Both the position numbers and the translations under genes were made by a program. This document shows positions 7,713-53,588 of a stretch of DNA of 64,000 bases, piece after piece. How positions within the stretch are numbered: position 1 is the first letter of the stretch; every line of letters starts with the position of its first letter. The stretch is from Modicisalibacter coralii (GTDB taxonomy: Bacteria; Pseudomonadota; Gammaproteobacteria; Pseudomonadales; Halomonadaceae): the NCBI RefSeq assembly GCF_004117855.1, contig NZ_QWBW01000012.1, positions 1 to 64,000 of the forward strand, written 5' to 3'. A model generated the notes under the pieces. That model was not told the DNA's origin and did no database searches. It saw only the letters and a list, made by a program, of their open reading frames with translations.

Positions 7713-7751
7713 GACGCTCGTCCTTTTTCTGCATGTGGTGGAAATCGCCGT

Positions 7752-9203
7752 CTAGATTCGCTGGGCGCCGATCTGCTCGAACCGCGCCGGGGCCAGCCGA
7801 CGCAGACGTATCGCCAGCATCCCGCCCACGCCGAGCGCCACCAGGATGAGCACGCAGAGCCCATAGGAGAGCAGCTGGCTCGACCCGGTCAGCACGTCGA
7901 AGTGGATGACCGCGATCACCATCACGGCGAGCAGCAGCAGACCGGAGATGGCCGGCAGGATTCGTCCGCGCCAGACCCCGACGTTCAGCTCGGGATGGCG
8001 TTGGAAGTAGAGCGTCACCGCCAGCGAGGTGATGGCCATCAGCAGGATCAACGACAGCGCCGCCAGGCTGGAGAACCAGGCGAACAGCTGCAGGATGGGA
8101 TCGCTGCCGCAGGCGGCGAAGATCATCACCGCGGTCGCCGCGATCAGGGTCTGCAGGAGCGAACCGACGTGCGGGCTCTGGTGAACGGCGTGCGTCGTCC
8201 CCAGGGCGTCGTGCAGCAGGCCGTCGCGACCGATGGCGTAGAAGTAGCGCGCCGCCGAGTTGTGGAAGGCCAGCAGGCCGGCATAGAGGCTGATCAGGAA
8301 CAGCACGCGGGCGATGTGCGTGAGCCAGCCCCCCACATAGTGGTCAGACAGGGTGTAGATCAGGGTGGTGGGATCCTGGAGTCCCTGCAGGGTCGTCACG
8401 ATCTTGTCGGACCCCACGCCGATGATCATCGACCAGGTCGACAGGGCATAGAAACAGCCGATCAGCAGGATCGAGGCGTAGGTGGCCAGCGGAATGTCGC
8501 GGCGGGGGTTCTTCGCTTCCTCGCCATAGATGGTGGTCGCCTCGAAGCCGATGAACGCCGCGAAGCAGAACAGCATGCCGATGGAGGGGGCGCCACTGAA
8601 GATATGCTCGGGCTGGAAGGCGGCAAAGTCGACGCCACTGTCCCCGCCGCTGGAAACAATCGCGATATCCAGGATCAGGATGACCGCGTACTCGGCCATG
8701 ACGATGAAGCACAGCAACTTGGCCGAAAGATCGATCTGCCGATAGCCGAGCAGGGCGATGCTCGCCATCGCGATCAGCGAATAGATCCACCAGGGCAGGC
8801 TCACGTCGAAGACCGCGCTCATGCTCCCCGCGGCGACACCGCCGAACATGCCGTAGATCCCGATCTGCAGGATGTTGTAGGCGAAGACCGCCAGCCCCGC
8901 GACCGCCCCGCCGGAGACCGGCCCCAGGCCTTTCGCCGAGAAGGCGTAGAAACCGCCCGCGTTGGTCACGTAGCGCGACATGGTGGTGTAGCCCACCGAG
9001 AACAGCAGCAGAATGAGCAGTACCAACACGATCAGTGACGGCGTCCCGGCGCCGTTGCCGAGCATGATACCGATGGGAAAGCCGCCCGCGAGCACACTGA
9101 AGGGGCTCGCCGCGGAGACCACGAAGAAGATGATGAAGCCGACACCCAGAGCGCCGCGCCGGAGCTCCGTCGAGGTCATCGCAGGGGAGGAGGTCACACT
9201 CAT
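7752..9203 (-). CDS. APC superfamily permease
   Basis: 483 residues with about 12 hydrophobic segments and the APC-type N-terminal segment (GALGVGFIIFFVVSAASPFS) followed by GEEAKNPRRDIP, a conserved cytoplasmic loop of amino acid/polyamine/organocation permeases. It should be an inner-membrane symporter for an amino acid, amine or related compound. Start at 9203 (MSVTSSPA) with GAAGG upstream; residues encoded upstream of it are not conserved-looking. First gene of the unit permease - aldehyde dehydrogenase - porin, with its promoter in the 232-bp gap to 9436. It suggests import of a precursor such as an aromatic amine or amino acid. Confidence 0.83.
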   Translation of the reverse strand: MSVTSSPAMTSTELRRGALGVGFIIFFVVSAASPFSVLAGGFPIGIMLGNGAGTPSLIVLVLLILLLFSVGYTTMSRYVTNAGGFYAFSAKGLGPVSGGAVAGLAVFAYNILQIGIYGMFGGVAAGSMSAVFDVSLPWWIYSLIAMASIALLGYRQIDLSAKLLCFIVMAEYAVILILDIAIVSSGGDSGVDFAAFQPEHIFSGAPSIGMLFCFAAFIGFEATTIYGEEAKNPRRDIPLATYASILLIGCFYALSTWSMIIGVGSDKIVTTLQGLQDPTTLIYTLSDHYVGGWLTHIARVLFLISLYAGLLAFHNSAARYFYAIGRDGLLHDALGTTHAVHQSPHVGSLLQTLIAATAVMIFAACGSDPILQLFAWFSSLAALSLILLMAITSLAVTLYFQRHPELNVGVWRGRILPAISGLLLLAVMVIAVIHFDVLTGSSQLLSYGLCVLILVALGVGGMLAIRLRRLAPARFEQIGAQRI

Positions 9204-9435: not shown

Positions 9436-10290
9436 TCAGTCGTCGCGGGCGCCGACCATGACGAAATCGAAATCCACCTGCCATGTCGTGTCCCCCGCCG
9501 TGGCTTTTCGATAATCCACGATCAACGCTTCCTTGACGCCGAAGACGGCATCCGAGGTCAGGTAGTCGTCGCCCGAGACGAAGGTATGGGTGACGATCCG
9601 CTCGTGATCCGGGTGGGTGATCAGAAAGTGCATGTGGGCCGGCCGCCAGGGATGACGCCCGAGACGCGCCAGCATTTTGCCCACCGGCCCGTCGTCGGGG
9701 ATCGGATAGGAGACCGGCTTGATGCCGACGAAGTCGTAGCGGCCGTCGGGGCCGGTGACGAACACGCCGCGGTTGTTCCATTTCGGCTGCCGGCCGGGCT
9801 GCTGGACGTCGTAGAAGCCCTCGCTGTTGTCCGACCAGACATCGAGGCGCGCGCCGGCGAGGGGCCGGCCTTCCAGGTCCAGCACGCGGCCCGTGTAGCG
9901 GCACGATTCGCCCTTGCCATCCAGCGAGATGCAGCTGCCCATGGGCAGCTCCGGGGCGCCGTCGACGTGGAAGGGGCCGAACACCGTGTTCTCGGTGGCG
10001 CCCGCCGGGCGGCGGTGGGCGATGGCGTCCACCAGCATGGAGACGCCGAGGGTATCGGAGAGCAGGATGAACTCCTGGCGCTCGGCATCGCACAACTGGC
10101 CGGTGCGGGTCAGAAAGTCGATCGCCGCCTCCCATTCGCGCTGGGTCAGCCCGACCTCCTTGACGAAGTCGTGCAGGTGGCGAACCAGCGCCGCCATGAC
10201 CTCGCGCAGCCGCGGGTCGGTCGCCTCGCCCATGCGCGCGTTGACCGCCTCGACGGAGTTGGCTTCGGTGAAATAGTCGATCCGGGGCAT
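9436..10290 (-). CDS. Intradiol ring-cleavage dioxygenase, hydroxyquinol 1,2-dioxygenase type
   Basis: 284 residues. The four ligands of the non-haem ferric iron are visible: Tyr160 (EGFYDVQ), Tyr195 (SYPIPDDGP), His219 and His221 (RPAHMHF). An N-terminal helical dimer domain precedes the catalytic barrel. The helical region (RLREVMAALVRHLHDFV, RQEFILLSDTLGVSMLVDAI, ENTVFGPFHV) resembles hydroxyquinol 1,2-dioxygenases more than catechol enzymes, and the neighbouring maleylacetate reductase fits, since hydroxyquinol cleavage gives maleylacetate. AGGAGG precedes the start at 10290; the reading frame stays open far upstream, but that part overlaps the reductase in another frame. It is the last gene of the long catabolic run. 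Confidence 0.83.
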   Translation of the reverse strand: MPRIDYFTEANSVEAVNARMGEATDPRLREVMAALVRHLHDFVKEVGLTQREWEAAIDFLTRTGQLCDAERQEFILLSDTLGVSMLVDAIAHRRPAGATENTVFGPFHVDGAPELPMGSCISLDGKGESCRYTGRVLDLEGRPLAGARLDVWSDNSEGFYDVQQPGRQPKWNNRGVFVTGPDGRYDFVGIKPVSYPIPDDGPVGKMLARLGRHPWRPAHMHFLITHPDHERIVTHTFVSGDDYLTSDAVFGVKEALIVDYRKATAGDTTWQVDFDFVMVGARDD

Positions 10291-10343
10291 GCTCTCTCCT
10301 CCTTGTCGGCCCGGTGACCGGGCCTCGATACGGGAACGCGGCC

Positions 10344-11402
10344 TTACACCGGGCGCTCGCCACGCCAGGCGCGGCCCAGCAGCTCGCGGATGGCGTCGCG
10401 CTCGATGGGGCGCGGGTTCCAGTAGGGATTCATGACCGCCAGCTCGGCGGCACGGTCCAGATCGGACTCGCGCAGCCCCAGGGCCTCGAGGGTCAGCGGT
10501 GCGCCCAGGCCGGCGGCGAAGTCGTGGAGGCCGCCACCCAGCTCGCCACCGAACAGGCGCGCCGCCGGCGCCAGGACATCGGCCGCCGCCTCGGCGTTGT
10601 AGGCGGCGGTATGCGGCAGCAGCACGGCGTGGGTCTCGGCGTGGGGCAGATCGAAGCTGCCGCCCAGGGTGTGGCACAGCTTGTGGTGCAGCGACATGCC
10701 CACGCTGCCCAGCACGCTGCCGCACAGCCAGGCACCGTAGAGCGCGTCGCTGCGCGCCTCGAGATCCCGCGGATGCTCGACGATCGCCGGCAGTGCCCGC
10801 TTCAGGCTGTCGAGCCCCTCCACGGCCATCCGCCCGGTCAGCGGGTTGCGGTCGCGGGCGTAGAGCCCCTCCACCGCGTGCGCCATGGCGTTAAGGCCAC
10901 TGGTCACGCTGATCGCCGGTGGCAGCTCGAGGGTGAGCTCGGCGTCGTAGATCACCACCTCGGGCAGGATGCCGGGGCCCTTGAGCGTGGTCTTCACGCC
11001 GTTCTCGGTCTGCCCCAGGATCGGCGTGACCTCGGAGCCGGCGTAGGTGGTCGCCACCACGATCTGCGGGGCGTCGTTGCGGTGGGCGATCGCCTTGGCC
11101 AGGCCCACGGTGGAGCCACCGCCCAGCGCGACGACACAGTCGGCATCGGCCTGCGCGAACGCCGCCATGGCCCGCTCGGTCACCGCCACCGGGGTATGCA
11201 TGGCGGCCTCGCTGAACACCCCCGCGGCCAGCTCGCCGAGCCGGGTCTGGAGCTCGAGCGCCGCGTCGCGGCGGGTGGGCGTGGCGAGCACCAGCGCCCG
11301 GCGGCACGCCAGGCGGCGGATCTCGTCGGCGATCCGGGCCCGGCTGCCGGGCCCGAAGAGAATACGCGCCGGGTTGCCCGTGTACACGAATTCGTGTGCC
11401 AT
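10344..11402 (-). CDS. Maleylacetate reductase
   Basis: 352 residues, iron-type alcohol dehydrogenase superfamily. The nucleotide-binding motif GGGSTVGLAKAIA (about residues 94-106) and the metal-region HHKLCHTLGGSFDLPHAETHAVLLPH are both present and typical of maleylacetate reductases. The enzyme reduces maleylacetate to 3-oxoadipate with NADH or NADPH, the step after hydroxyquinol (or chlorocatechol) cleavage. AGGAGG lies before the start. It directly precedes the intradiol dioxygenase and follows the SnoaL-like gene by 9 bp, so all are probably one transcript. Its presence in an iac-like run is unusual. Confidence 0.88.
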   Translation of the reverse strand: MAHEFVYTGNPARILFGPGSRARIADEIRRLACRRALVLATPTRRDAALELQTRLGELAAGVFSEAAMHTPVAVTERAMAAFAQADADCVVALGGGSTVGLAKAIAHRNDAPQIVVATTYAGSEVTPILGQTENGVKTTLKGPGILPEVVIYDAELTLELPPAISVTSGLNAMAHAVEGLYARDRNPLTGRMAVEGLDSLKRALPAIVEHPRDLEARSDALYGAWLCGSVLGSVGMSLHHKLCHTLGGSFDLPHAETHAVLLPHTAAYNAEAAADVLAPAARLFGGELGGGLHDFAAGLGAPLTLEALGLRESDLDRAAELAVMNPYWNPRPIERDAIRELLGRAWRGERPV

Positions 11403-11411
11403 GACGCCTCC

Positions 11412-11978
11412 TCAGTCCTTGAGCAGCACCGACTCGCTGGGATAGTCCGTCGCCCAGCCTTCCTGCAGCGGCGCCACGAAGACGTTCTCGGTGCGCGTGC
11501 GGGTGATCTTCCACTGCCCGTCGGGCTCCTTGCGGAAGGCATTGTTGAGCCGCGACGAACGCAGCAGCGCCTTGCCGTTGGAGAAGATCCAGGGCTGGCA
11601 GTGGACCCACTGACCTTCGGCGACGTCGCCGCGCACATGGATCTGCTCCGAGGTCAGATAGTGGACGTTGAGCAGCAGCTTGGGGTCCGCGTCCTGCTTC
11701 CAGAAACCCTCGAAATGCCGCCGGATCGCCGCCGCGCCCTCGGCGCGCCCGAACTGGTCGTCGTAGTACTCGCCGACGCCTTCCCAGACGGCATCCTCGG
11801 TATACAGCGCCATGATCCGGTCGATGCGTTCGGCGTCGCTGGTCACTCCGTACTCGGGGATCGGAGTGTCGCAGAGGAACATGTAGCGCGCCTGCAGGCG
11901 GCGGATCTCGGCTTCGGCCTCCAGCGTCTCGATGCGCGCCACCAGGGCGTTCACTTCAGCACTCGTTACTTCCGACAT
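11412..11978 (-). CDS. iacI: SnoaL/NTF2-like protein, probable IacI
   Basis: 188 residues with a short N-terminal coiled coil (VNALVARIETLEAEAEIRRL) and a SnoaL/NTF2-like cone fold: RYMFLCDT, IMALYTEDAVWEG and QWKITRTRTE are typical segments. The iac locus includes a small protein of this kind, IacI, with no well-settled function. Here it lies between iacG and maleylacetate reductase, and a good ribosome site (AAGGAG) precedes the start. It could be an isomerase, a cyclase-like enzyme or an accessory protein of the Rieske system, whose small subunits share this fold. Confidence 0.7.
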   Translation of the reverse strand: MSEVTSAEVNALVARIETLEAEAEIRRLQARYMFLCDTPIPEYGVTSDAERIDRIMALYTEDAVWEGVGEYYDDQFGRAEGAAAIRRHFEGFWKQDADPKLLLNVHYLTSEQIHVRGDVAEGQWVHCQPWIFSNGKALLRSSRLNNAFRKEPDGQWKITRTRTENVFVAPLQEGWATDYPSESVLLKD

Positions 11979-12044
11979 GGTCGGTCTCCTTGGTTTGCTT
12001 GGCTTTTTTGGCTTGCTTGCACATTGGCCTCTCGCTCGGAGAGG

Positions 12045-12971
12045 TCACGAAGGGGCGCCGAGACGCTCGATCACACGCCCCAGCCCCGACTTGAGGGCAT
12101 CGGCCTCGTTAGGCGCCAGGCTCTCGAACAGGCGACGCTCGTAGTCGTCGGCCATCGCCAGCAGACGCAGCGCCAGGCTCTGTCCGTCCTCGGTGAGATG
12201 CACGTCCCGGGAGTCGTCCACGCCCAGAAGCCCCCGCTCCCGGAGTATCGCGAGGATGTCCTCGAGCTCCGCGAGCGGTTGTGCCACGCGCCGCGCCAGC
12301 ACCTCGGCGGCCAGCGGCCCGCCATCGGCGAGCAGGGTCAGCACCCGCCACTCGTTGTCGTTGACGCCGAGGCAGGCGAGCCGCGGGTAGAAATCCCCCC
12401 GGTAGGCGGCCAGTGCCTGGCGCATCAGATAGAGCAGGTGCCGGCCCAGCCGGCCGTCCAGCGCCGTGTGCTCGCCGACGTCGAGCATCAGCGGATGCGG
12501 TTCGGGCACGGCGTAGCGGCCGTTGTGGAAGACCAGGGCGCTGCCCTCCTTGCGGTAGGCGTAGCGCAGCACTTCACCGACGATGATCAGGTGATCGCCG
12601 CCCTCGTAGACGTTCCAGGTCCGGCACTCGAAATGGGCCGCGGCCCCCGTCACCCGGGCGACGCCACCCAGGCCCTCGTCGATGGCGATACCGGCGAACT
12701 TGTCCTCGCCGCGCCGGGCGAAGCGGTTGGAGATGTCGACCTGCTCGTTGCCGAGCACGTTGACCACGAAGTGTTCGGCGTGGCGGTAGACATCGAGGCT
12801 GTAGGCCCCCTTGTCGATGCTCCACAGGATCAGCGGCGGATCCATCGACACCGAGTTGAAGCTGCTGGCGGTCACGCCGTGGTGCGTCTCGCCATCGCGG
12901 GCGGTGATCACCGTCACCCCGGTGGCGAACTTGCCCAGCGCGCTGCGGAAATCTCTCGTATCGAAGCTCAT
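12045..12971 (-). CDS. iacG: Flavin reductase fused to a MarR-like domain, probable IacG
   Basis: 308 residues in two parts. Residues 1-165 are a short-chain flavin reductase (RSALGKFATGVTVIT, then GVTASSFNSVSMDPPLILWS, the flavin-binding region, and VNVLGNEQ). Residues about 175-305 form a winged helix of MarR type (NDNEWRVLTLLADGGPLAAE, DDSRDVHLTEDGQSLA). The same architecture occurs in the reductase (C1) of p-hydroxyphenylacetate hydroxylase of Acinetobacter, where the MarR-like part binds the aromatic substrate and controls NADH oxidation. It should supply reduced flavin to the IacA monooxygenase. The domain is more likely an allosteric sensor than a DNA-binding regulator, though both remain possible. 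Confidence 0.83.
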   Translation of the reverse strand: MSFDTRDFRSALGKFATGVTVITARDGETHHGVTASSFNSVSMDPPLILWSIDKGAYSLDVYRHAEHFVVNVLGNEQVDISNRFARRGEDKFAGIAIDEGLGGVARVTGAAAHFECRTWNVYEGGDHLIIVGEVLRYAYRKEGSALVFHNGRYAVPEPHPLMLDVGEHTALDGRLGRHLLYLMRQALAAYRGDFYPRLACLGVNDNEWRVLTLLADGGPLAAEVLARRVAQPLAELEDILAILRERGLLGVDDSRDVHLTEDGQSLALRLLAMADDYERRLFESLAPNEADALKSGLGRVIERLGAPS

Positions 12972-13004
12972 CGGCGACTCTCCGTTGCGGTCGTCAGACG
13001 CTGT

Positions 13005-13196
13005 TCAGCGGCCCAGGCGCTCGGCGGTCTCGCCGCCGATGCCGTAGTCGCTCTTGGGTATCTCGCTGATGATCACGCGCACGTTGGCCGGCGGTGCATC
13101 GAGGGAGTCGGCGACGGCATCGGTCACCTGACGAATCAGGGATTCCTTCTGGGTCGGGGTGCGCCCCGCGATCATGTAGACGTGAACGGTTGGCAT
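13005..13196 (-). CDS. 4-oxalocrotonate tautomerase family protein
   Basis: 63 residues, the normal monomer length of the family. After removal of Met, catalytic Pro1 is at the N-terminus (PTVHVYMIAGR), Arg11 and Arg39 fall exactly at the positions of the two active-site arginines of 4-oxalocrotonate tautomerase, and the VRVIISE strand is conserved. The family moves double bonds or protons in 2-hydroxydienoates and similar acids. It lies between iacF and iacG in the same run with short gaps. A tautomerase is not among the nine described iac structural genes, so it may act on a ring-opened or keto-enol intermediate particular to this variant. Confidence 0.85.
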   Translation of the reverse strand: MPTVHVYMIAGRTPTQKESLIRQVTDAVADSLDAPPANVRVIISEIPKSDYGIGGETAERLGR

Positions 13197-13216
13197 TGTT
13201 GTGTTCCTTGGTGGAT

Positions 13217-14188
13217 TCAGAGATCGAGAACGAGTCGCTTGCCTCGGGCCCGGGAACAGCAGACGCACATCTGGTCGCCGTCCTCGCGCTCGTCGGCGGT
13301 GAGAAAGTGGTCGCGATGATCGATCTCGCCGTCGAGGACGTCGGTCACGCAGGTGCCGCACACGCCCTCCTCGCATTTCACCTCGACCATGACCCCGGCC
13401 CGCGCCAGCGCCTTGGCGATGGTGTCCTCGGCGCCCACGTGGACGGTGACGCCGGAACGTTCGGCGACCACCTCGAAGGCCTCGCCCGAGACGTCGACGT
13501 CGGCGGAGAAGAACTCCCGGTGAATGCGGGCGTCGTCGATACCGAAGGCACCGGCGCGCCCAATCACCCAGTCCATGAAGCCCGGCGGGCCGCACACGTA
13601 GACGTTGACCCCGGCATCGGCCTCGGCCAGCGCGGCATCCAGGTCGAGCCGGGTCGCCGGGTCGTCGTCGTGGTGATAGACCACGGCATCGGCCAGGCCG
13701 GCGGCCGCCACCGCGTCGCGGAAGGCGGTGGCCTGCCGCGAACGCGTGCAGTAGTGCAGCGTGAAATCCCGCCCCAGCGCGTGCAGCCGCCGGGCCATGG
13801 CGATCATCGGCGTCACCCCGATGCCGCCGCCGAACAGCAGGCTCTGGGTGGCCGCCTCGTTGAGCGGAAAGTGGTTCTTCGGCCCCTCGACCTCGAGGGT
13901 GCCGCCGGTTCGCACGATGCGGTGCAGGGTTTCCGAACCACCGCGACTGTTGGGGTCGCGCAGCACGCCGATCTCGTAGAAGGCGGTCTCCGCCGGGTCG
14001 GAACACAGCGAGTACTGCCGCCACAGGTCGACGTCGGCGTCGCGGATGTGCACGTCCAGGTGGGCGCCGGCGGTGAACGGCGGCAGCGGAGCACCGTCGG
14101 CGGCGCGCAGCCGCAGTCTGGCGATATTGCCCGGCTCGTCGATGCGTTCGTCGATGGTCAGCGTCAAGCGCTCTTTTGGCGTCTCCAT
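13217..14188 (-). CDS. iacF: Ferredoxin reductase of the Rieske oxygenase system, probable IacF
   Basis: 323 residues with the phthalate-dioxygenase-reductase order: flavin domain (about 10-105, RQYSLCSDP as the FMN/FAD-binding RxYS motif), NAD domain (LLFGGGIGVTPMIAMARRL and VYVCGPPGFMDWV) and a C-terminal plant-type [2Fe-2S] ferredoxin with CEEGVCGTC followed by a later Cys. It carries electrons from NADH to the IacC/IacD oxygenase. Two start codons lie 6 nt apart (14194 and 14188); the second has AGGTG at a proper distance. It starts just past the stop of iacE. Confidence 0.88.
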   Translation of the reverse strand: METPKERLTLTIDERIDEPGNIARLRLRAADGAPLPPFTAGAHLDVHIRDADVDLWRQYSLCSDPAETAFYEIGVLRDPNSRGGSETLHRIVRTGGTLEVEGPKNHFPLNEAATQSLLFGGGIGVTPMIAMARRLHALGRDFTLHYCTRSRQATAFRDAVAAAGLADAVVYHHDDDPATRLDLDAALAEADAGVNVYVCGPPGFMDWVIGRAGAFGIDDARIHREFFSADVDVSGEAFEVVAERSGVTVHVGAEDTIAKALARAGVMVEVKCEEGVCGTCVTDVLDGEIDHRDHFLTADEREDGDQMCVCCSRARGKRLVLDL

Positions 14189-14193
14189 TGGCA

Positions 14194-14952
14194 TCACCTC
14201 ATGTAGATTCCGCCGTTGACGTCCCAGCAGGCGCCGTTGACGAAGGCCGCCCTGGGGCCGGCCAGCAGCGCCACCAGCTCGGCGACGAAGGACGGGTCGC
14301 CGAGTCGGCCCACCGGGATATTGGCGAGGGCCTGCTCGAGGTTGTCGCCCAGCACCGAACGCACCATGGGCGTGTCCATCGGTCCGGGGGCAATCGCATT
14401 GCAGGTGACGCCGAAGGGCGCCAGGTCGCGGGCGAAGATCTTGGTCAGGGTCAGGATGGCGCCCTTGGACGCGGCGTAGTGGGCGCCGGTCGCGGTGCCG
14501 CCGTTCTGTCCCGCCAGCGAGGCCAGATTGACGATGCGTCCGTAGCCCCGGGCCTTGAAGTGGCGGCCGAAGATCTGGCTGCCGGCGAAGGTGCCGCCGG
14601 CGTTGGTGGCGAGCACGGCGTTGAAGTCCGCGGGGTCGATCTCCAGCACGCCCTGGACCGCGGTGCGTGCGGCGTTGTTGACCAGCACCTCCACCGAGCC
14701 CCAGCGCTCGAGGCACTTGTCGAGCACGGCCTGGAAGTCGTCGGGACGGGTCACGTCGAGGGTCGCGGTGATCGCGGTCTCGCCGGAGAGGTCCAGCTCG
14801 CTGGCCAGCGCCGCGGCCGGCTCGGGGTCGATGTCGGAGATCACCACCCGGAAGCCGGCGCGATGCAGTGCACGCACCGCCTCGGCGCCGAAGCCGCGGG
14901 CGCCGCCGGTGACCACGGCGGTGTGGATCTTGTCGGGGGCAGGTAGCGTCAT
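14194..14952 (-). CDS. iacE: Short-chain dehydrogenase/reductase, probable IacE
   Basis: 252 residues. It has the Rossmann glycine motif TGGARGFG (15-22), NNA at 92-94, and the catalytic Ser145, Tyr159 and Lys163 (YAASK). In the iac pathway IacE is the SDR that acts on the hydroxylated IAA product on the way to dioxindole-3-acetic acid. Start and stop overlap those of its neighbours: its ATG shares a base with the stop of iacD (TGATG), and iacF starts within a few bases of its stop, so translation is coupled. Substrate is inferred from locus identity. Confidence 0.82.
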   Translation of the reverse strand: MTLPAPDKIHTAVVTGGARGFGAEAVRALHRAGFRVVISDIDPEPAAALASELDLSGETAITATLDVTRPDDFQAVLDKCLERWGSVEVLVNNAARTAVQGVLEIDPADFNAVLATNAGGTFAGSQIFGRHFKARGYGRIVNLASLAGQNGGTATGAHYAASKGAILTLTKIFARDLAPFGVTCNAIAPGPMDTPMVRSVLGDNLEQALANIPVGRLGDPSFVAELVALLAGPRAAFVNGACWDVNGGIYMR

Positions 14953-15446
14953 CAGAACAAATAGCTGAACGAATTCAGCATCCCGTCGGAGTTGAGCAGA
15001 CGTGCCACCTTGTGGCGGATCTGGAAGCCGCCCGGGGTGACGATGAGGGTGTAGGTGAGGTCGGCGGCCCAGACGCGCTGGCGACCGAACTTGTCCTCGA
15101 TCAGGTGTTCGGCGCAGCGCACCCTGACGTCATCGCCATCGACCGCCTCGATCACGAAGCGCGACAACGTGCGCACGGTGCGCGCCGGCGGCGCCGAGGA
15201 GATCGAGAAGCCCTGCTGGAAGCGCGTGATGCGCTCGCGCCGCATGTGGGCGTCGTCGTGGCACAGGTTGAGCGCGTCGTCGAAGTCCCGGGTATCGCCG
15301 ATCGGCAGGGTATAGAAGCCGTCGTCGCTCCACAGGGCGAGCCACGCCTCGTAGTCGCGGTGGTCGAGCATGTCCGCCTCGGCCCAGATGAAGGCCTGGG
15401 CGTCCCACAGCAGTGAGTCGTTCCGGGTGTCGGTCGGGGTGTTCAT
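14952..15446 (-). CDS. iacD: Rieske-type dioxygenase small (beta) subunit, probable IacD
   Basis: 164 residues, the usual size and cone fold of ring-hydroxylating dioxygenase beta subunits: FIWAEADMLDHRDYEAWLALW near the N-terminus, the HMRRERITRF segment and RVWAADLTYTLIVTPGGFQIRHKVARLLN near the end match the family pattern. The subunit has no metal centre and stabilises the alpha subunit. The start at 15446 overlaps the stop of iacC (ATGA), a strong sign of coupled expression with its partner. Confidence 0.86.
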   Translation of the reverse strand: MNTPTDTRNDSLLWDAQAFIWAEADMLDHRDYEAWLALWSDDGFYTLPIGDTRDFDDALNLCHDDAHMRRERITRFQQGFSISSAPPARTVRTLSRFVIEAVDGDDVRVRCAEHLIEDKFGRQRVWAADLTYTLIVTPGGFQIRHKVARLLNSDGMLNSFSYLF

Positions 15447-16717
15447 GACTGCATCATCCTTTTCCACATGTCGTACGCCGCGCGCATGCCGGTCTCGGCA
15501 CTGATATGCCCGCGCGGGCCCGCCTCGCCGGGTTGCTCGTCGTCGAGGCCACGGTTGATCAGGATGGGCAGCTCCGCCCCGCCCTGAACGCCGCGCTGGA
15601 TGCGCTCCCATACCTCGGCATCGTCGGGCGAGCCGAACCCCATGGGGCCCTGGAAGTGCTCGTGCAGCCGCATTCGCGCCCGGTTGGCGGCGTCAGGACC
15701 GCCATCCATGCCGATGGCGATGTGGCGGATGTCGGTGCGATCGACGCTCACCGGCGTCAGCACGCGGAAGAAGGCCAGCGAGAACGACACGTTGGGGAAC
15801 AGGTTGAGGTTGAAGCCGGCGCCACCCACGGCGCGCACGATGCGTCGCACCTGCGGCTCGTCATGGCCGGCGTCGCGCAGCTCCTGGGCCAGGGTCTGGA
15901 AGCGTTCGGGGATCGGCGCGTCGAGGTTGTCCTCGAGATCCACCAGCTCGGGGATCATCACCATCACCGAGTGGCCGTTGCCGAGATCCTCGACGTAGCC
16001 CTTGCCCTGGTCGAGGAACGAGAAGACCGCCTCGGTCTCGTCGTCCAGCGACTGCAGGAACGACTTGTGCACCACCGGGAAGTGATAGGCGTCGGTGGTG
16101 TTCTCGAGCTGGATCTTCCAGTTCATCGGCACGCTGAACTGATGCTCGCCGAGCACCTTGACCGGGTAGCCCGCGCCCTGCTTCATGAACAGGTCGATCC
16201 AGTGGGTCACCGGCCCGAGAAAATCGAGCAGCGGCTCGGCCTGCTCGTCGAAGGTGGCGAAGATCATCCCGGCGTAGGATTCGGTGCGCAGCTTGAGCAG
16301 GCCGTGCTGCGCCTTGTCGAAGTCGTCACCGTACTGCTCGGGATAGGGCAGCGCGCGCAGCGAGCCGTCCAGGGCGTAGCCCCAGCCGTGGTAGGGGCAC
16401 TGGAACGAGGCGGTCTTGCCCTGCTTGACCTCGCACACCGTGGCCGCCCGGTGGCGGCAGCGGTTGATCATGACGTGGATCTTGCCCTTGCGGTCGCGCA
16501 CCACGATCACCGGGTCGCGCCCCACCTGGGACAGCTTGAACGAGCCCTTGTCGGGAATTTCGCTCTCGTGAGCGACCCACACCCAGGTCTTCTTGAAGAT
16601 GCGTTCCATCTCGGCGTCGAAAAGCGCCGGGTCGTCGTACATGGGGGTGCGGATGTGGTCCCTGAACACCAGTTCATCCGGTTCAGGGACGAGGTCGATC
16701 CTGTTGTCGATCGTCAT
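15443..16717 (-). CDS. iacC: Rieske-type dioxygenase large (alpha) subunit, probable IacC
   Basis: 424 residues. The Rieske [2Fe-2S] ligands are Cys87, His89, Cys107 and His110 (CRHRA and CPYHGWGY). The catalytic domain shows the mononuclear iron signature ENTTDAYHFPVVH with bridging Asp209 and ligands His212 and His217. With IacD it forms the terminal oxygenase, which in iac-type pathways attacks a product of indole-3-acetate oxidation and leads to an aromatic diol. It starts at 16717 about 85 bp after iacB. Family membership is certain; the substrate is inferred from the locus. Confidence 0.9.
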   Translation of the reverse strand: MTIDNRIDLVPEPDELVFRDHIRTPMYDDPALFDAEMERIFKKTWVWVAHESEIPDKGSFKLSQVGRDPVIVVRDRKGKIHVMINRCRHRAATVCEVKQGKTASFQCPYHGWGYALDGSLRALPYPEQYGDDFDKAQHGLLKLRTESYAGMIFATFDEQAEPLLDFLGPVTHWIDLFMKQGAGYPVKVLGEHQFSVPMNWKIQLENTTDAYHFPVVHKSFLQSLDDETEAVFSFLDQGKGYVEDLGNGHSVMVMIPELVDLEDNLDAPIPERFQTLAQELRDAGHDEPQVRRIVRAVGGAGFNLNLFPNVSFSLAFFRVLTPVSVDRTDIRHIAIGMDGGPDAANRARMRLHEHFQGPMGFGSPDDAEVWERIQRGVQGGAELPILINRGLDDEQPGEAGPRGHISAETGMRAAYDMWKRMMQS

Positions 16718-16802
16718 GATGGCCTCGCGCTAGCGGTTGTCGGGTCGTTGTCGAAACGCCTGTCGTGACACGTCTTTCTGAAAACGTCGGTGACGCTGTC
16801 CG

Positions 16803-17150
16803 TCACTCGGGGACGACGAGTTCGCGGCCGATGCGCGCCTCGACACGGCAGTATTTCCAGAGCTTGTAGGTACCGTCCCCCACCGGGGTGGTGCGGAAGA
16901 AATTGCAGGCGTCGACGATGGCTTCGTAGGTCTCGACGTCGGCCATGATGTAGAAGGTCCAGGGCGCGGCGAGGGAGGGGCCGACCTGAATGCGGTCGTC
17001 GTCCATGATCCCCAGGATGGTGACGCCGGGCAGACCGTCGATGCCCTGCAGCATGGTGCGGGTGGCTTCCCAGACCTGCTTGGCCTCGTCGGCGGTGGCG
17101 CTCATGAAGTTCTGGTTGATGCCGCAGCAGAACAGTACGCGATGTTGCAT
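16803..17150 (-). CDS. iacB: Small conserved protein, probable IacB
   Basis: 115 residues with no signal peptide or membrane segment. The sequence has a ferredoxin-like dimeric alpha/beta-barrel feel (MQHRVLFCCGINQNFM, TFYIMADVETYEAIVDACNFFR, KLWKYCRVEARIG), as in EthD- or monooxygenase-associated proteins, but I cannot place it firmly. Position directly after the flavin monooxygenase and before the Rieske subunits matches iacB of known iac loci, whose function is not well established. The start at 17150 lies 35 bp after iacA. Confidence 0.7.
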   Translation of the reverse strand: MQHRVLFCCGINQNFMSATADEAKQVWEATRTMLQGIDGLPGVTILGIMDDDRIQVGPSLAAPWTFYIMADVETYEAIVDACNFFRTTPVGDGTYKLWKYCRVEARIGRELVVPE

Positions 17151-17185
17151 GTCGTGATTCTCCGTTAGCGAGTGATTGGCCCGGC

Positions 17186-18331
17186 TCACAGGTAGCCCGG
17201 CAGCGGGTCGTGGTCGAAGAAGATGGCGCCGGCGTTCTTCCAGGTGATCTCGCCCATGAAGGCGTGCTGAGTACACAGCATCGAGTCGCGCAGGATGCGC
17301 GACAGCGGGTGCCCGTTGTCGGCGCCGCTCATGCCGCTGAGCTGGTACACGCCGCGGATCGCCTCGGCACACTCCCGGGTCAGGTGGGTGGTGGACAGAC
17401 GCAGCAGGTTGATCTGGTCGCGACTCGGCTCGCCGCCCGCCTCGACGGCACGCCAGGCGGCCTCGGTGCTCTCGTAGAAGAAGGCGCGGGCGGCACGCAC
17501 CTGGGCCTCGGCCTTGGCCAGGCCGATCTGGGCGTATTCGCGTTCGCCGAGGTTGGGCGCGCCGGTGACCGACTTGCGCCCCCCGGCCGAGGCCCGCATC
17601 ACGTCGAGCGCCTCGCGGGCCAGGCCCAGGGTGGTCGCCGCCAGCACCTGGGCGGCGAAGGCCAGCGCCGGGTAACGGAAGAAAGGGGCATCGATGGTCG
17701 CCCGGGCGCCGCGCACGAAGGTCCACTCCTCGGCGACGTAGGCGTCGTCCACCACCAGGTCGTGGCTGCCGGTGGCGACCATGCCGACCATGTTCCAGGT
17801 GGGATCGATGCGTACCCTGTCGGGGGGAAGCACCGCCATGCGCGGCGCGGCATCGGGCTCGTCGGGCTGGATGCCGACGCCGCACAGGGTCGCGCCCATG
17901 CAGCCGCTGGCGAACTTCCAGCGACCCTTGATGCGGTAGCCGCGATCGACCCGCTCGGCGGGATGCGGCGGAAAGATGCCGCCGGCGAACACCACGTCCG
18001 GGGAGTCCGCCCAGATCCGGGTGATGGTTGCCTCGGGCAGCGCGGCCAGGTAGGCGGGATTCATGCCGAAACTCGCCACCCAGCCGGCGGAGCCATCAGC
18101 CGCCGAGATCGCCTCGACCATCTTCAGGAACTCGGCGGGGGATTTCTCGTCGCCGCCGTAGCGCTTGGGCACCAGGGCCCGGTAGACCCCGATAGCCTTG
18201 AACGCGTCGACGATGTCCGCCGAGATATGCCGTTGCGCCTCGAACTCCTCGCGGCGCTGACGAATCTCGTCGAGCAGCGCATCGAAACGCGCCTCGCCGC
18301 CCCATTGGGCCTTATCGACCAGGCTGTACAT
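17186..18331 (-). CDS. iacA: Flavin-dependent indole monooxygenase (acyl-CoA dehydrogenase fold), probable IacA
   Basis: 381 residues with the fold of acyl-CoA dehydrogenases used by group D flavin monooxygenases: an N-terminal helical domain (FKAIGVYRALVPKRYGG, AISAADGSAGWVASFG), a middle barrel (YRIKGRWKFASGCMGATLCGVG) and a C-terminal helical domain. Such enzymes use reduced flavin and O2; relatives are the oxygenase of p-hydroxyphenylacetate hydroxylase and IacA, which hydroxylates indole-3-acetate. The partner reductase would be IacG. The start at 18331 has AGGAG at 6 nt; another ATG at 18337 sits on the ribosome site. The gene overlaps the end of the amidase gene by 20 bp. Confidence 0.85.
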   Translation of the reverse strand: MYSLVDKAQWGGEARFDALLDEIRQRREEFEAQRHISADIVDAFKAIGVYRALVPKRYGGDEKSPAEFLKMVEAISAADGSAGWVASFGMNPAYLAALPEATITRIWADSPDVVFAGGIFPPHPAERVDRGYRIKGRWKFASGCMGATLCGVGIQPDEPDAAPRMAVLPPDRVRIDPTWNMVGMVATGSHDLVVDDAYVAEEWTFVRGARATIDAPFFRYPALAFAAQVLAATTLGLAREALDVMRASAGGRKSVTGAPNLGEREYAQIGLAKAEAQVRAARAFFYESTEAAWRAVEAGGEPSRDQINLLRLSTTHLTRECAEAIRGVYQLSGMSGADNGHPLSRILRDSMLCTQHAFMGEITWKNAGAIFFDHDPLPGYL

Positions 18332-19484
18332 ACGCATCTCCTGTGGTTGTGGGGGTTGCCGCCGGGCGTGTGCCGAGCAGGTGGCGCGCAGCCCGGCAGA
18401 CCCCGGCGTCGTCGCCGCGCCGACCGACCAGCTGCAGGCTCACCGGGCGGTCGCGATCCGGCGCCAGGGGCAGGCTCAGGGCGGGATGCCCCGACAGGTT
18501 GAAGGGCCGCACCAGGGCCGAAATGGTCAGGTCCTGCTGCCCGCCTTCGGCGGCGGCGCGGGTCAAAGGAAAATGCGGCAGCGTCGGCAGCGCCAGCACC
18601 GCGTGGGTCTCGAGCAGCCGGTCCACGGCGGCGGTGAAGGCGCGGCGCACCGCCTCGGCCTCGCGCACCTCGGCGTCGGTGGTCTCGGCGGCGGCACGCA
18701 GGCGGCGCTCGACATCGGCACCCAGGCGGCCGCTTTCCAGCCAGGGCCGGCAGGCGAGATAGGTCTCGCGATTGATCAGCGCCATGCCCGCCGCGTAGGC
18801 CTCGTCCATCAGCGGCAAGGATCGCGTGGTAGCGTCCAGCCCGGCGCTTTCCAGACAGGCCGCAACCGCTCCGTGGATTGCCGGATCGGCATCGACGTCC
18901 AGCGCTCCCAGCCGGGGCGGCGCACCGCCAGCGGCGGTGGCGTCGAACGTGGGATCGACCGCCGCCATGAACGCGATGAGGGTGTCGAGATCGGCGCTCA
19001 GCGGCCCCACGCAGTCGAGACTGCTGTGCGCCGGCATGACGCCCCGGCGGTCGAGCCGGCCAAAGGTGGGCTTGAGCCCGTAGACGCCGCAGCACGCCGC
19101 GGGTACCCGGATCGAGCCGCCGGTATCGGTGCCGATGCCGATCTCCGCCAGCCCCGCGGCGACCGCCGCCGCCGAGCCGCTGGACGAGCCGCCCGGGATC
19201 AGCGCCGGGAAGCGCGGGTTGTCGGGCGTTCCGGTCCAGGCGTTGAGCCCGCTCATGCCGAACGCCAGCTCGTGCAGGTTGGCCTTGCCGACGATGCGGT
19301 AGCCCGCGGCCAGAGTGCGCTCGACGATCGCCGCATGGCGCGTCGCCGCCGGGACCTCGGCCAGCGCCTCGCAACCGGCGCGGGTGGGCTGGCCGGCGAT
19401 GTCGATGCTGTCCTTGACCACGACCCGGGCGGGGCCGGTGCCGAGATCCAGGGATTGAACGAGTACGGACTTGGGCGATTTCAT
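18312..19484 (-). CDS. iacH: Amidase signature family enzyme, probable IacH
   Basis: 390 residues. The Ser-cisSer-Lys triad region is intact: Lys24 in VVVKDSIDIAG, the GGSSSGSAA segment at 98-106 and the nucleophile Ser124 in TDTGGSIRVPA. The family hydrolyses amide bonds. IacH is the amidase of iac loci; a role on indole-3-acetamide or on a ring-opened amide intermediate is possible. The start at 19484 follows a 20-bp element shared with the dctP promoter and has only a weak ribosome site; the frame remains open upstream, but there it runs antisense-like through the dctM coding frame and is not real. First gene of the iac run. Confidence 0.83.
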   Translation of the reverse strand: MKSPKSVLVQSLDLGTGPARVVVKDSIDIAGQPTRAGCEALAEVPAATRHAAIVERTLAAGYRIVGKANLHELAFGMSGLNAWTGTPDNPRFPALIPGGSSSGSAAAVAAGLAEIGIGTDTGGSIRVPAACCGVYGLKPTFGRLDRRGVMPAHSSLDCVGPLSADLDTLIAFMAAVDPTFDATAAGGAPPRLGALDVDADPAIHGAVAACLESAGLDATTRSLPLMDEAYAAGMALINRETYLACRPWLESGRLGADVERRLRAAAETTDAEVREAEAVRRAFTAAVDRLLETHAVLALPTLPHFPLTRAAAEGGQQDLTISALVRPFNLSGHPALSLPLAPDRDRPVSLQLVGRRGDDAGVCRAARHLLGTRPAATPTTTGDAYVQPGR

Positions 19485-19540: not shown

Positions 19541-20830
19541 TCAGAGGACGAAGGTCACCAGCCCGGGCACCAGCAGCAGCAAGGCGATACACAACAGATA
19601 GGGCATCAGAAAGTAGCCGACGCCACGGAAGATCTCGCCGATGCCAAGCTCGGGATCGAGACGCTTGACGATGAAGGCGTTGACGCCCACCGGCGGCGTG
19701 ATCGCCCCCATGCTGGTCACGATGCAGACCATGATGCCGAACCATACCGGGTCGTAGCCCAGCGCCAACGCGACCGGAAAGAAGATCGGGATCGAGATGA
19801 TCAAGAACCCCATGGCATCCATCAGCGCCCCGCCGATGACATAGATCAGCAGCACGCAGGCCATCACCAGTATCGCCGGCAGGGGGAGCGCGGCCGCCCA
19901 CTCGCCGACCATGAAGGGCAGCCGGGTCACGGTGAGGAAGCGGCCGAAGACCACCGCGCCGGTCACCAGCATCAGGATCATCGCCGAGGTCGCCAGCGAG
20001 TGGCTCAGCGAGTCCCGCAGCACCGCCCAGGACAACCGCCCGCGCAGGCCGACGACGATCATGGCGCCCACGCAGCCCACGGCCGCGGCCTCGGTGGAGG
20101 TGAACCAACCGGCGAACAATCCGCCCAGCACCAGCATGAAGAGCGCGGCGATCTCCATCAGCCCCTGGAGAGATGCCAGGCGGGCACGCCAGGTGGAACG
20201 CTGACCGGCCGGCGCCAGCGACGGATCGCGCCAGCAGAGATAGGCGATGGTCAGCACGAAGAGCAGCATCAGGATCAGCCCGGGCACGATGCTGGCGACG
20301 AACAGATCGCGAATCGCCAGTTGGGCCTGCAGGGCGATCACCACCAGCACCGCACTGGGCGGGATGATCACGCCCAGAGTGCCGCCGGTGGCCACGCTCC
20401 CGGCGCTCAGCGCCTTCTGGTAGCCGAACTTCTTCATCTCCGGCAGGGCGATGGTGCCCACCGTGGCCGCGGTCGCCGTATTGGACCCGCACACCGCGGC
20501 GAAACCGGCGCTGCTCAGGATCGTGGTGGTGGCCATCGAGCCCCGGCGGTGCCCCGTCCAGGCATAGGCGGCGGCGAACAGCTTTTCGGTGATGCCCGAG
20601 CGAAACAGCAACTCGCCCATGAACACGAACAGCGGTATCACGCTCAGCGAATACGCCGAGAGCTGTTCCCAGATCCCCGAGCTGACGATGTTGTAGGCCG
20701 CCAGTGGACTGGTGATGCCGAGCATGCCGAAGAAGCCGACGATGAACATGGCGAAGCTGATCGGCATCTGCAGGACGATCAGGCCGAACAGCACCAGCAC
20801 GCCGACCAGGGCCATCAGGGTCAGGCTCAT
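19541..20830 (-). CDS. dctM: TRAP transporter large permease subunit (DctM)
   Basis: 429 residues with about 12 hydrophobic segments and DctM family signatures (GSNTATAATVGTIALPEMKKFGYQKALSAG; residues quoted in part: TVGTIALPEMKKFGY). It forms the ion-coupled membrane channel of a tripartite ATP-independent periplasmic transporter. The start at 20830 has GGAGGG upstream and its ATG overlaps the stop of dctQ (ATGA). The position directly before iacH suggests import of the substrate of the iac pathway. Confidence 0.9.
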   Translation of the reverse strand: MSLTLMALVGVLVLFGLIVLQMPISFAMFIVGFFGMLGITSPLAAYNIVSSGIWEQLSAYSLSVIPLFVFMGELLFRSGITEKLFAAAYAWTGHRRGSMATTTILSSAGFAAVCGSNTATAATVGTIALPEMKKFGYQKALSAGSVATGGTLGVIIPPSAVLVVIALQAQLAIRDLFVASIVPGLILMLLFVLTIAYLCWRDPSLAPAGQRSTWRARLASLQGLMEIAALFMLVLGGLFAGWFTSTEAAAVGCVGAMIVVGLRGRLSWAVLRDSLSHSLATSAMILMLVTGAVVFGRFLTVTRLPFMVGEWAAALPLPAILVMACVLLIYVIGGALMDAMGFLIISIPIFFPVALALGYDPVWFGIMVCIVTSMGAITPPVGVNAFIVKRLDPELGIGEIFRGVGYFLMPYLLCIALLLLVPGLVTFVL

Positions 20831-21303
20831 GTCCGCACCCTCCGGGTCAGGCACGCCATCAGGTCCGTCAGCAGCACCAGGCAGAACGCAGAGAAGCCGA
20901 AAGCGACCAGATAGATGATGGGATAGATCGCCAGGCGCAGGGATTGCGATACCGTGTCGCGCTGCATGGCGAGCAGGCCGTAGTGCCACAGCTGGTAAGC
21001 CACCATGGCGAAGAACGCGAGGCTCGCCAGCAGCACCAGGGCCTGTACACCGGTCTGCAGCCGCCGCGGCAGGCGGGCGACCACCAGATCCAGCTCGATG
21101 TGTGCCTTCTTCGACTGGGCATGGGCCAGCGACAGGGACACCACGGCGGCCGTCAGCCAGCCGACGACCTCGGTGGTGCCGCCGAACGACGCCGACACCT
21201 GACGCAGCACGATGTTGGCCACCACCAGCAGCGTCATCGCCAGCAACGCCGCCCCGGCGAGGACGAGCAACGACCGACTGACCACAAGCGAGAAGCGATA
21301 CAT
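20827..21303 (-). CDS. dctQ: TRAP transporter small permease subunit (DctQ)
   Basis: 158 residues with four hydrophobic segments and the DctQ features VANIVLRQVSASFGGTTEVV and SKKAHIELDLVV. It pairs with DctM in the inner membrane. AGGAGG lies before the start at 21303; an upstream in-frame ATG overlaps that ribosome site and is rejected. It lies 34 bp after dctP and overlaps dctM by 4 bp, so the three genes are one operon. Confidence 0.88.
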   Translation of the reverse strand: MYRFSLVVSRSLLVLAGAALLAMTLLVVANIVLRQVSASFGGTTEVVGWLTAAVVSLSLAHAQSKKAHIELDLVVARLPRRLQTGVQALVLLASLAFFAMVAYQLWHYGLLAMQRDTVSQSLRLAIYPIIYLVAFGFSAFCLVLLTDLMACLTRRVRT

Positions 21304-21337: not shown

Positions 21338-22390
21338 TCAGTCCCGGACGCCATCGCTCTGCCGATAGTGGTCGAACAACTCGAGCATGCGCGTCTCGAA
21401 CGCCTCGGCGGGAAGGCCCATCTCGGCCACACGGGTCAGGCGCTGCTGATTGACCGGCGCCAGGCGTTCGTCCCAGCGGGCCGCTTCGGCCTCGCTCAGG
21501 GGCAGCACCTCGACCCCTTCCTCCTTGCGCGCCCACGCCAGCGACTCGGCGACGTGGCCATCGAGGTAGTCACCGGCATAGCGGGCCATTTCCGGCCCCA
21601 GGTCATCGATGACCGCCTGCACGTCCTTGGGCAGCGACTCCCAGCGCTGGCGGTTCATGACCGCCACCAGCACGGCGTTGGTCAGGGGGTAGTCGGTGAC
21701 GTACTTGACGGTCCGCGCGTAGCGCAGATCCATCAGCACCTCCCGGGAGCTCACGTAGCCGTCGACGACGCCGGCCTGCAGCGCCTCGCCGGTATCCGAC
21801 TGCGCCAGGGCGATCGGCACGCCGCCCAATGCCGCCAGGACGTCGGTGGCATCGCCGGGGACCCGGATCTCCTGACCTTGCAGCGCCTCAAGGGACGTCA
21901 CCGGGTCCTTGGTCTGCAAGTAGCCCGGCTCGGCGGTGAAGGCGGTGATGACCTTGAAATCCTCGAGTCCGAGTTGCTCGGGCGGGAATTCCTGAATCAG
22001 CTCGTAGACGGTCTGGCTGGCCACGCTCGAATCGACCTGCAGCCCGGTCAGGCTGCCGGCCAGGTTGAGCAGCGGAAAGCGGTTGGGTTCGTAGGAGGTG
22101 ATCGACAGGCCGATGTCGGCGACGCCGCTACGCACGCCGTCGTACATGTTGTCGGCGGTCAGCAGCGTGCCACCGGGAAAGGTGTTCACGGTCACGCGGC
22201 CATCGGTGCGACGCTCGATTTCCTCGGCCCAGTGCTCCATCTGCACGCCGGGGAAGGTGCTGGTGGGCGAGATGAAGGCATAGCTGAGGGTGATATCGCC
22301 GGCGGCGGCCAGCGGACTCGCCAGCACGCCCGCCAGGCCGATGGCCCCGGCCAGGCACGCGATGCCCGGCACGACTGTCTTCTTCGTCAT
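21338..22390 (-). CDS. dctP: TRAP transporter substrate-binding protein (DctP)
   Basis: 350 residues. A signal peptide ends near residue 30 (VLASPLAAAGD). The mature part shows the DctP pattern: WAEEIERRTDGRVTVNTFPGG near the start, DIGLSITSYEPNRFP, the LQGQEIRVPG segment with the conserved Arg that binds a carboxylate ligand, and YVSSREVLMDL. It captures an organic acid in the periplasm for DctQM. Start at 22390 with a purine-rich ribosome site; its promoter carries the 20-bp shared element. An aromatic acid such as indole-3-acetate is a reasonable ligand, by context. Confidence 0.88.
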   Translation of the reverse strand: MTKKTVVPGIACLAGAIGLAGVLASPLAAAGDITLSYAFISPTSTFPGVQMEHWAEEIERRTDGRVTVNTFPGGTLLTADNMYDGVRSGVADIGLSITSYEPNRFPLLNLAGSLTGLQVDSSVASQTVYELIQEFPPEQLGLEDFKVITAFTAEPGYLQTKDPVTSLEALQGQEIRVPGDATDVLAALGGVPIALAQSDTGEALQAGVVDGYVSSREVLMDLRYARTVKYVTDYPLTNAVLVAVMNRQRWESLPKDVQAVIDDLGPEMARYAGDYLDGHVAESLAWARKEEGVEVLPLSEAEAARWDERLAPVNQQRLTRVAEMGLPAEAFETRMLELFDHYRQSDGVRD

Positions 22391-53473: not shown

Positions 53474-53588
53474 TTTCTTGATCGAGTTTTCATTCTGGGC
53501 GATACCGGCCCTTTCAACCCCTTTTAAAATTCATATAAAACAAAGACTTAAAGACACCATCCATAGCAAGTTTTCTTGATCGGGTTTT
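53474..53588. repeat. 17-bp direct repeats around an AT-rich segment
   Basis: TTTCTTGATCGAGTTTT (53474-53490) begins right after the stop of the AlbA_2 gene and recurs with one change as TTTCTTGATCGGGTTTT at 53572-53588. The AT-rich sequence between them is unlike its surroundings. The pair may mark the edge of an inserted segment. Confidence 0.45.

Follow-up and report, generated by a model that had tools for sequence, protein, structure and literature searches.

Gene content of the island

Here we describe a catabolic island in a 64-kb stretch of Modicisalibacter coralii DNA (contig NZ_QWBW01000012.1, positions 1 to 64,000; hereafter the window), part of a 4.44-Mb genome, in which the genes of an iac-type indole-3-acetate pathway run directly into those of a hydroxyquinol lower pathway. 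The island lies on the minus strand from 22390 to 3238, with TRAP transporter genes first and a MarR-type regulator gene last, in the order DctP-Q-M, iacH-A-B-C-D-E-F, tautomerase, iacG, iacI, maleylacetate reductase (MAR), hydroxyquinol-type dioxygenase (HQD), APC permease, aldehyde dehydrogenase, porin-like protein, AraC and MarR (Table 1). Its core is a co-directional run from the start of IacH at 19484 to the stop of HQD at 9436. The intergenic gaps from DctP to HQD range from -26 to 85 bp; on the same strand, MAR lies 9 bp after iacI and HQD 53 bp after MAR, and the APC permease gene follows 232 bp beyond HQD. A scan found no terminator-like sites on the minus strand from iacI to the end of HQD, and a promoter scan of the island gave no excess over shuffled sequence.

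All nine families from IacA to IacI are present in this one run, assigned by family, gene order and annotated relatives, in agreement with a preliminary description of this DNA that had equated the nine structural genes with iacA-I. IacB and IacI match no specific NCBIfam model, and their identity comes from homology and gene order. A protein annotated IacB lies at the equivalent place on a Klebsiella plasmid, and the order H-A-B-I-C-D-E-F-G at locus L125 is the one printed for Acinetobacter (iacHABICDEFG). IacG scores 274 bits against the p-hydroxyphenylacetate 3-hydroxylase reductase model, under the cut-off of 340, and its residues 188-288 match the HpaR model at 0.0005. The product of the MarR gene (3238-3714) is 79% identical to that of a gene beside iacI in L120 and 38% identical to those of MarR genes annotated next to alphaproteobacterial iac. 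Among the profile-searched genes of the window operon there is no further ring hydroxylase.

The dioxygenase resembles hydroxyquinol enzymes by several measures. Its best solved relative is 6-chlorohydroxyquinol 1,2-dioxygenase (8r2x, 7e-128; 69.6% identity over 273 aligned residues), followed by PnpC (4e-79) and hydroxyquinol dioxygenase 1tmx (3e-74), with chlorocatechol and catechol enzymes at 1.5e-38 or weaker. On the catechol and chlorocatechol equivalog models it reaches 146-154 bits, where the cut-offs are 359-404. The host CatA, encoded on contig 40 whereas the island lies on contig 55, served as positive control and scores 465 bits against a cut-off of 392 on the proteobacterial catechol model. 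In a dioxygenase tree of 103 rows, 11 catechol enzymes separate with 100/100 support, and the window HQD falls in a clade of 11 Halomonad-type rows, also at 100/100; the tree contained no chlorocatechol enzyme, and separation from that class rests on the model scores and structure matches. At the 15 positions that we take to line the 1tmx active site, including the four iron ligands (Tyr, Tyr, His, His), HQD is identical to 1tmx at all 15 and CatA differs at 6. The window dioxygenase is thus predicted to be of the hydroxyquinol type and not the catechol type. MAR, in turn, matches solved maleylacetate reductases (3hl0, 3.5e-150; 3w5s, 5.7e-150). The preliminary description had the iac run continuing directly into MAR and a hydroxyquinol-type dioxygenase and had called for a dioxygenase phylogeny; gene order and the matches to 3hl0, 3w5s and 8r2x bear out the first, and the tree groups the enzyme with hydroxyquinol rather than catechol dioxygenases, the opposite of the grouping that the description had named as refuting.

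Between iacF and iacG lies a tautomerase of 63 amino acids that the preliminary description did not list. As a hydroxyquinol-specific step from 3-hydroxymuconate to maleylacetate it was rejected, since 13 of the 14 fetched catechol-type Halomonadaceae iac loci have this tautomerase at 60% identity or more. On a Caballeronia plasmid, a tautomerase-family gene follows iacD. A second TRAP transporter between iacF and the tautomerase is found in 11 of the 14 catechol-type Halomonadaceae iac operons and in Halomonas campaniensis (L113), and is missing from the window-type operon. Outside the island, G+C drops to 0.60 at window positions 52001-54000, with surroundings of about 0.68-0.71.

Table 1. 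Genes of the island in the window, listed from HQD through the core to the transporter genes, then from the permease to the last regulator.
Feature	Position	Strand	Basis or remark
HQD, hydroxyquinol-type intradiol 1,2-dioxygenase (predicted), 284 aa	9436..10290	-	structure-relative matches, tree, active-site positions
MAR, maleylacetate reductase, 352 aa	10344..11402	-	PDB matches 3hl0, 3w5s
iacI, SnoaL-like protein, 188 aa	11412..11978	-	homology and gene order
iacG, flavin reductase with C-terminal extension weakly matching MarR-type models, 308 aa	12045..12971	-	profile search
4-oxalocrotonate-tautomerase-like protein, 63 aa	13005..13196	-	between iacF and iacG
iacF, ferredoxin-reductase-type, serving Rieske dioxygenase, 323 aa	13217..14188	-	homologues annotated 'PDR/VanB family oxidoreductase'
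iacE, short-chain dehydrogenase	14194..14952	-	profile search
iacD, Rieske dioxygenase beta subunit	14952..15446	-	profile search
iacC, Rieske dioxygenase alpha subunit	15443..16717	-	profile search
iacB, 115 aa	16803..17150	-	no Pfam/NCBIfam match; homology and order
iacA, flavin-dependent monooxygenase, acyl-CoA dehydrogenase fold	17186..18337	-	profile search
iacH, amidase	18312..19484	-	profile search
TRAP transporter large permease	19541..20830	-	most other Halomonadaceae iac loci have homologues in this position
TRAP transporter small permease	20827..21303	-	homology
TRAP substrate-binding protein DctP	21338..22390	-	NF037995, 108 bits, cut-off 50
APC-family amine/amino acid permease	7752..9203	-	profile search
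Aldehyde dehydrogenase, proposed (hydroxy)indole-acetaldehyde dehydrogenase	6291..7712	-	profile search
Porin-like outer membrane protein	4869..6197	-	named from sequence; no Pfam/NCBIfam match
AraC-type regulator	3852..4784	-	EutR and AndR models, both below cut-off
MarR-type regulator, iacR candidate	3238..3714	-	no NCBIfam match at 1e-10; homology

Recurrence of the linkage and a swap in Halomonas campaniensis

With IacC called at E <= 1e-100, 24 of 250 Halomonadaceae genomes carry it. HQD at 75% identity or more is present in 8 of these, always sharing a contig with IacC and no more than 10 kb away from it, and the remaining 16 have no HQD match above 43%. At an identity of at least 66%, HQD occurs in 10 of the 250 genomes, 8 of the 24 with IacC versus 2 of the 226 without it (G412 and G463), an association with a Fisher value of 9e-8 when kinship is ignored. 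The iac-HQD linkage goes beyond chance. By HQD, the nearest named relatives of the window are Salinicola tamaricis, S. endophyticus and Larsenimonas rhizosphaerae. In S. tamaricis F01 (L079 746-12502) many island genes, and in H. olivaria TYRC17 (L011 470-9952) several, match only in pieces, for which sequencing errors seem likelier than decay.

The join also recurs outside this family. Across the wider order, IacC at 60% or more is found in 14 of 293 genomes and HQD above 42% in the window genome only. IacC is present in 11 of 295 genomes of the G551 family, 3 of these with HQD at 69% or more, linked in one (13 kb); in the family of G569 there are 8 of 297, with HQD at 68% or more in 4, within 10 kb of IacC in two, 43 kb away in one and about 520 kb away in one. 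The HQD-linked alphaproteobacterial loci are those of G551, G563, G569 and G1106, and plasmids of Gemmobacter, Sagittula, Martelella, Shinella and Azospirillum carry HQD within an iac locus, the Martelella locus with no MAR in the fetched stretch. A set of 80 HQD loci was also collected, in which the fetched stretch contains MAR in 68 and IacC in 8. The check for IacC took in fifty of them; among the 48 genomes searched, 14 have it, 9 with both genes at most 20 kb apart. Mapped onto the IacC tree (54 rows), the HQD-linked label has to change 7 times, and well-supported branches force no fewer than 5 of these changes. The HQDs of the four linked alphaproteobacterial loci group with that of one Paracoccus locus (99/96) and stand outside the Halomonad clade, and therefore at least two HQD lineages appear to have been recruited.

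The H. campaniensis locus (L113, L010) shows how such a join may arise or be lost. Over 13-16 kb in L113, its DNA is 92-94% identical to the HQD-less relatives L114 and L116 and 90-92% identical to L117. The high identity, 92-93% in L010, stops sharply inside iacG, at about position 7861 of L010 (iacG 7206-8132), and this drop is a predicted recombination breakpoint. Beyond it, iacI has about 69% DNA identity and is followed in H. campaniensis by MAR-HQD, and in the HQD-less relatives by ketopantoate-reductase-like and class II aldolase-like genes (named from sequence and from an annotated pair in L170). L113 and L114 share 98-99% identity in IacA to IacE, with IacA and IacC at 99%, and therefore the upper enzymes did not have to change with the lower pathway, whether the swap was a gain or a loss of HQD, directions that the comparison does not distinguish. 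Since the upper enzymes are conserved across the swap, the incoming ring probably differs between HQD-type and HQD-less loci. A search for specificity residues in IacA and IacC was dropped, as the 98-99% identity to the HQD-less locus leaves no clean type-separating residue. IacI is 73-81% identical between the HQD and catechol types. IacG of the window is 78% identical to that of L114 in residues 1-160 and 50% in residues 161-308, the C-terminal part evolving faster, and in H. campaniensis IacI and C-terminal IacG change together with MAR-HQD.

A proposed route from hydroxylated indole-acetate to 3-oxoadipate

In the published Iac route, IacA produces 2-oxoindole-3-acetate, IacE dioxindole-acetate, and IacCDF, perhaps with IacI, catechol (PMC7225977, PMC9613470); the pathways described there finish at catechol and use cat genes (PMC7225977, PMC9613470, PMC11373566). 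For the window, the preliminary description had offered either a trihydroxybenzene as the final ring or an extra hydroxylation. A trihydroxybenzene is supported by the grouping of HQD together with the presence of MAR to take its product. An extra hydroxylation appears less likely, because the operon, unlike locus L009 (below), has no added ring hydroxylase and the Iac oxygenases keep 99% identity to an HQD-less locus across the H. campaniensis swap. On the simplest reading, the incoming substrate already carries the extra hydroxyl.

We consider it likely that the island joins an iac upper pathway to a hydroxyquinol lower branch for a ring-hydroxylated indole-3-acetate, most likely 5-hydroxyindole-3-acetate (5-HIAA), perhaps derived from serotonin; the 6-hydroxy form would fit too. 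The acid would enter by the TRAP transporter. IacA/IacG and IacE would oxidise it at C2/C3, and the ring would be opened with IacH and possibly IacI. IacCD/IacF would then dihydroxylate the two ring-fusion carbons (C3a and C7a) as the nitrogen and side chain leave. The hydroxyl at C5 (or C6), which we infer to be kept, would become position 4 of a catechol, and the product would be 1,2,4-trihydroxybenzene (hydroxyquinol) rather than catechol. HQD would convert hydroxyquinol to 3-hydroxymuconate/maleylacetate, and MAR would reduce maleylacetate to 3-oxoadipate. Alternatively, an arylethylamine, for which serotonin is the natural candidate, could enter through the APC permease, be deaminated, and be oxidised by the aldehyde dehydrogenase. 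5-HIAA, the oxidation product of serotonin, would be the natural compound that fits the entry genes and the lower pathway together.

Other explanations also account for parts of the locus. Plain indole-3-acetate might be converted to catechol by the Iac enzymes, with a hydroxylase encoded elsewhere producing the hydroxyquinol on which HQD and MAR act. In favour, each of the nine iac genes is of the typical kind, and HQD-MAR may follow a flavin hydroxylase, as in L009, an 8-kb contig without iac in which an FAD aromatic hydroxylase precedes a near HQD-MAR pair. In Sagittula, a cytochrome P450 lies about 3.5 kb past the iac genes and a salicylyl-CoA 5-hydroxylase further off, which makes extra hydroxylation possible in that organism. 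However, the window operon holds no hydroxylase gene, and with a host catA to handle catechol a detour via hydroxyquinol would gain nothing, so we regard this route as unlikely.

It is rather improbable that the target of HQD and MAR is an unrelated substrate that yields hydroxyquinol and that the two merely share a gene run with iac. Although the pair is common without iac, as the 80 loci indicate, and G412 and G463 have HQD without IacC, the short same-strand gaps, the repeated association on the IacC tree and on five alphaproteobacterial plasmids, and the lack of any other ring-modifying gene in the operon all argue for a shared function.

The upper enzymes could instead add a third hydroxyl to indole-acetate, for example through an altered IacI or C-terminal IacG. 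In H. campaniensis it is these parts that change along with MAR-HQD, C-terminal IacG being the more divergent half of its protein, and the proposed oxygenase IifA includes a SnoaL-fold domain (PMC7225977). Yet IacI keeps its identity of 73-81% between types, and IacA and IacC hardly differ across the swap, which makes this explanation very improbable. That HQD is a second catechol 1,2-dioxygenase in an ordinary iac pathway is hardly credible, because, although it shares a protein superfamily with the catechol enzymes, model scores, structure matches, tree and active-site positions all oppose the catechol type and MAR would have no role in such a pathway.

Entry genes and comparison with known systems

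The HQD-linked loci hold genes suited to the conversion of an arylethylamine to an arylacetic acid. In Halomonadaceae, an APC permease homologue is found in 5 of the 8 HQD-linked loci versus none of the 14 catechol-type loci, and the aldehyde dehydrogenase, at 70% or more, in 6 of 8 versus 0 of 14. A class III aminotransferase gene follows the aldehyde dehydrogenase gene in L007, L079 and L140/L163. L010, L011 and the four linked alphaproteobacterial loci instead have a relative of 'tyramine oxidase subunit B' (in L106, 721 bits against a cut-off of 362), a Rid protein and an FAD oxidoreductase. The annotated order in Sagittula stellata places an aminotransferase directly before MAR and the dioxygenase. 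In several alphaproteobacterial HQD-linked loci, a class II histone-deacetylase-like amidohydrolase adjoins iacI (L105 12490-13605, L167 12992-14113), which might release an N-acetylated amine. The window itself has only the APC permease and aldehyde dehydrogenase genes, and the tyramine-oxidase-type module (subunit B, Rid and FAD proteins) is absent among the named genes of its island.

Counting any such gene at fixed identity thresholds and excluding the window, entry genes are present in 12 of 12 linked loci (8/8 Halomonad, 4/4 alphaproteobacterial) versus 4 of 42 unlinked loci (0/14 catechol-type Halomonad, 0/12 alphaproteobacterial, 1/13 other, and 3/3 rhizobial with no HQD within 20 kb), a contrast that is partly circular, the queries having been drawn from HQD-linked loci. 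Fourteen of the 16 unlinked Halomonadaceae IacC genomes were fetched, three of which (G403, G297 and G318) are cut by contig ends just past or before iacI. The initial catechol-type stretches reached 0-4.4 kb past iacI; widening them by up to 12 kb further downstream, and the others by up to 15 kb on each side, left the counts unchanged. When the cut-off was relaxed to 80 bits and any family member was accepted, a relative of the aldehyde dehydrogenase or of the aminotransferase appeared in 2 of the 14 catechol-type loci. Each of the four exceptions (G885, G1056, G1114 and G290) has catA within its fetched stretch, which would be expected of loci that degrade an unhydroxylated amine; in G885 an HQD also lies 43 kb away from IacC. 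Loci L147-L149, L150/L188, L151/L189 and L126 combine iac, amine-entry genes and catA with no HQD within 20 kb, as would be expected of tryptamine counterparts to the HQD-linked islands.

Plasmids gave a similar picture in a small set that was less circular but not blind: 30 had an IacC match and 12 were fetched, two of which (H3, H4) were already in the HQD list. Entry genes are found in 5 of 5 HQD-linked plasmids versus 2 of 7 unlinked ones, by annotation and, for Shinella and Azospirillum, whose records are unannotated, by tblastn. Flanks were 18 kb for H1-H4 and 12-14 kb for the rest, and so wider for four of the linked plasmids. The two unlinked plasmids with entry genes are Novosphingobium aromaticivorans pNL2 (amine dehydrogenase and aldehyde dehydrogenase) and a Rhodococcus plasmid (aldehyde dehydrogenase), and three unlinked plasmids (H9, H12 and H25) have annotated cat genes beside iac. 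On pNL2 (L175 4704-7512), the iac-type genes lie by amine dehydrogenase, aldehyde dehydrogenase and 3-oxoadipate genes.

Several points, in addition to the Sagittula flank, the circularity of the entry-gene queries and the small plasmid set with its uneven flanks, weigh against a 5-HIAA or serotonin substrate. Corrected for descent, the entry-gene link agrees in 4 of 5 pairs (p 0.125) and is not significant. Entry genes with iac and catA but without HQD (L147, L150, L151, L126) fit tryptamine as well as serotonin. The window genome has no close homologue of the class III aminotransferase, the best match being 40% identical, and its island may serve uptake of the acid only, with no amine; an aminotransferase as the entry enzyme of this strain is likewise unsupported, given that best match and the large size of the family. 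Some of the HQD-linked islands have a catA nearby (L163, L145, L169). The tautomerase is common to catechol-type iac loci and shows no specificity for the HQD type. Finally, passage of a substituent through Iac is published as a hypothesis and not as an observed product: a 2025 paper on 5-chloroindole-3-acetic acid has as its working hypothesis that substituted indole-acetates become substituted catechols via Iac, and describes a growth inhibition specific to growth on indole-3-acetic acid, with no product shown (PMC12502551).

With these points counted, we put forward only tentatively, at somewhat less than even chances, that the window carries a dedicated serotonin-type hydroxyindole island, a kind that halophilic gammaproteobacteria and alphaproteobacteria would have put together several times by joining different amine-entry and hydroxyquinol modules to one auxin-degrading core, with sister loci that have the same amine genes and catA serving the unhydroxylated amine.

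The island resembles the iac systems of Pseudomonas putida 1290, Acinetobacter, Paraburkholderia phytofirmans and Caballeronia glathei in its nine structural families, similar core order and nearby MarR-type regulator. Unlike these, its run is closed by MAR and the hydroxyquinol dioxygenase, followed by permease and aldehyde dehydrogenase genes, and has no linked catechol dioxygenase. The iad systems of Variovorax paradoxus CL14 and Bradyrhizobium share auxin degradation under MarR control but proceed via isatin to anthranilate, whereas the window gene set is that of iac. Hydroxyquinol lower pathways (8r2x, PnpC, 1tmx; 3hl0, 3w5s) likewise have HQD and MAR adjacent. They are typically fed by a phenol- or resorcinol-type hydroxylase, of which L009 is a hydroxylase-fed example, whereas in the window iac would feed the pair. 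Biogenic amine oxidation genes (tyramine oxidase subunit B, Rid hydrolase, FAD oxidoreductase, APC permease, arylacetaldehyde dehydrogenase) adjoin HQD-linked iac in the alphaproteobacterial loci, and some of them do so in H. campaniensis and H. olivaria, but the window locus has only the permease and aldehyde dehydrogenase of these and lacks the class III aminotransferase of some relatives. Searches of open-licence literature turned up no account of iac joined to hydroxyquinol or of a serotonin-to-hydroxyquinol route. The nearest case comes from Corynebacterium glutamicum, where the repressor of a MAR/dioxygenase operon is reported to have indole and 1,2,4-trihydroxybenzene as effectors, with no iac involved (PMC7764795).

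The island would supply a candidate gene set for the complete bacterial breakdown of serotonin- or 5-HIAA-type compounds, and it cautions that iac genes alone are no proof of auxin degradation. H. campaniensis and its HQD-less relative, with nearly identical upper enzymes, form a natural swap experiment. A recurrent hydroxyquinol ending would point to the Iac core as a general platform for indole-acetates, with the attached lower pathway indicating which substrate it handles.

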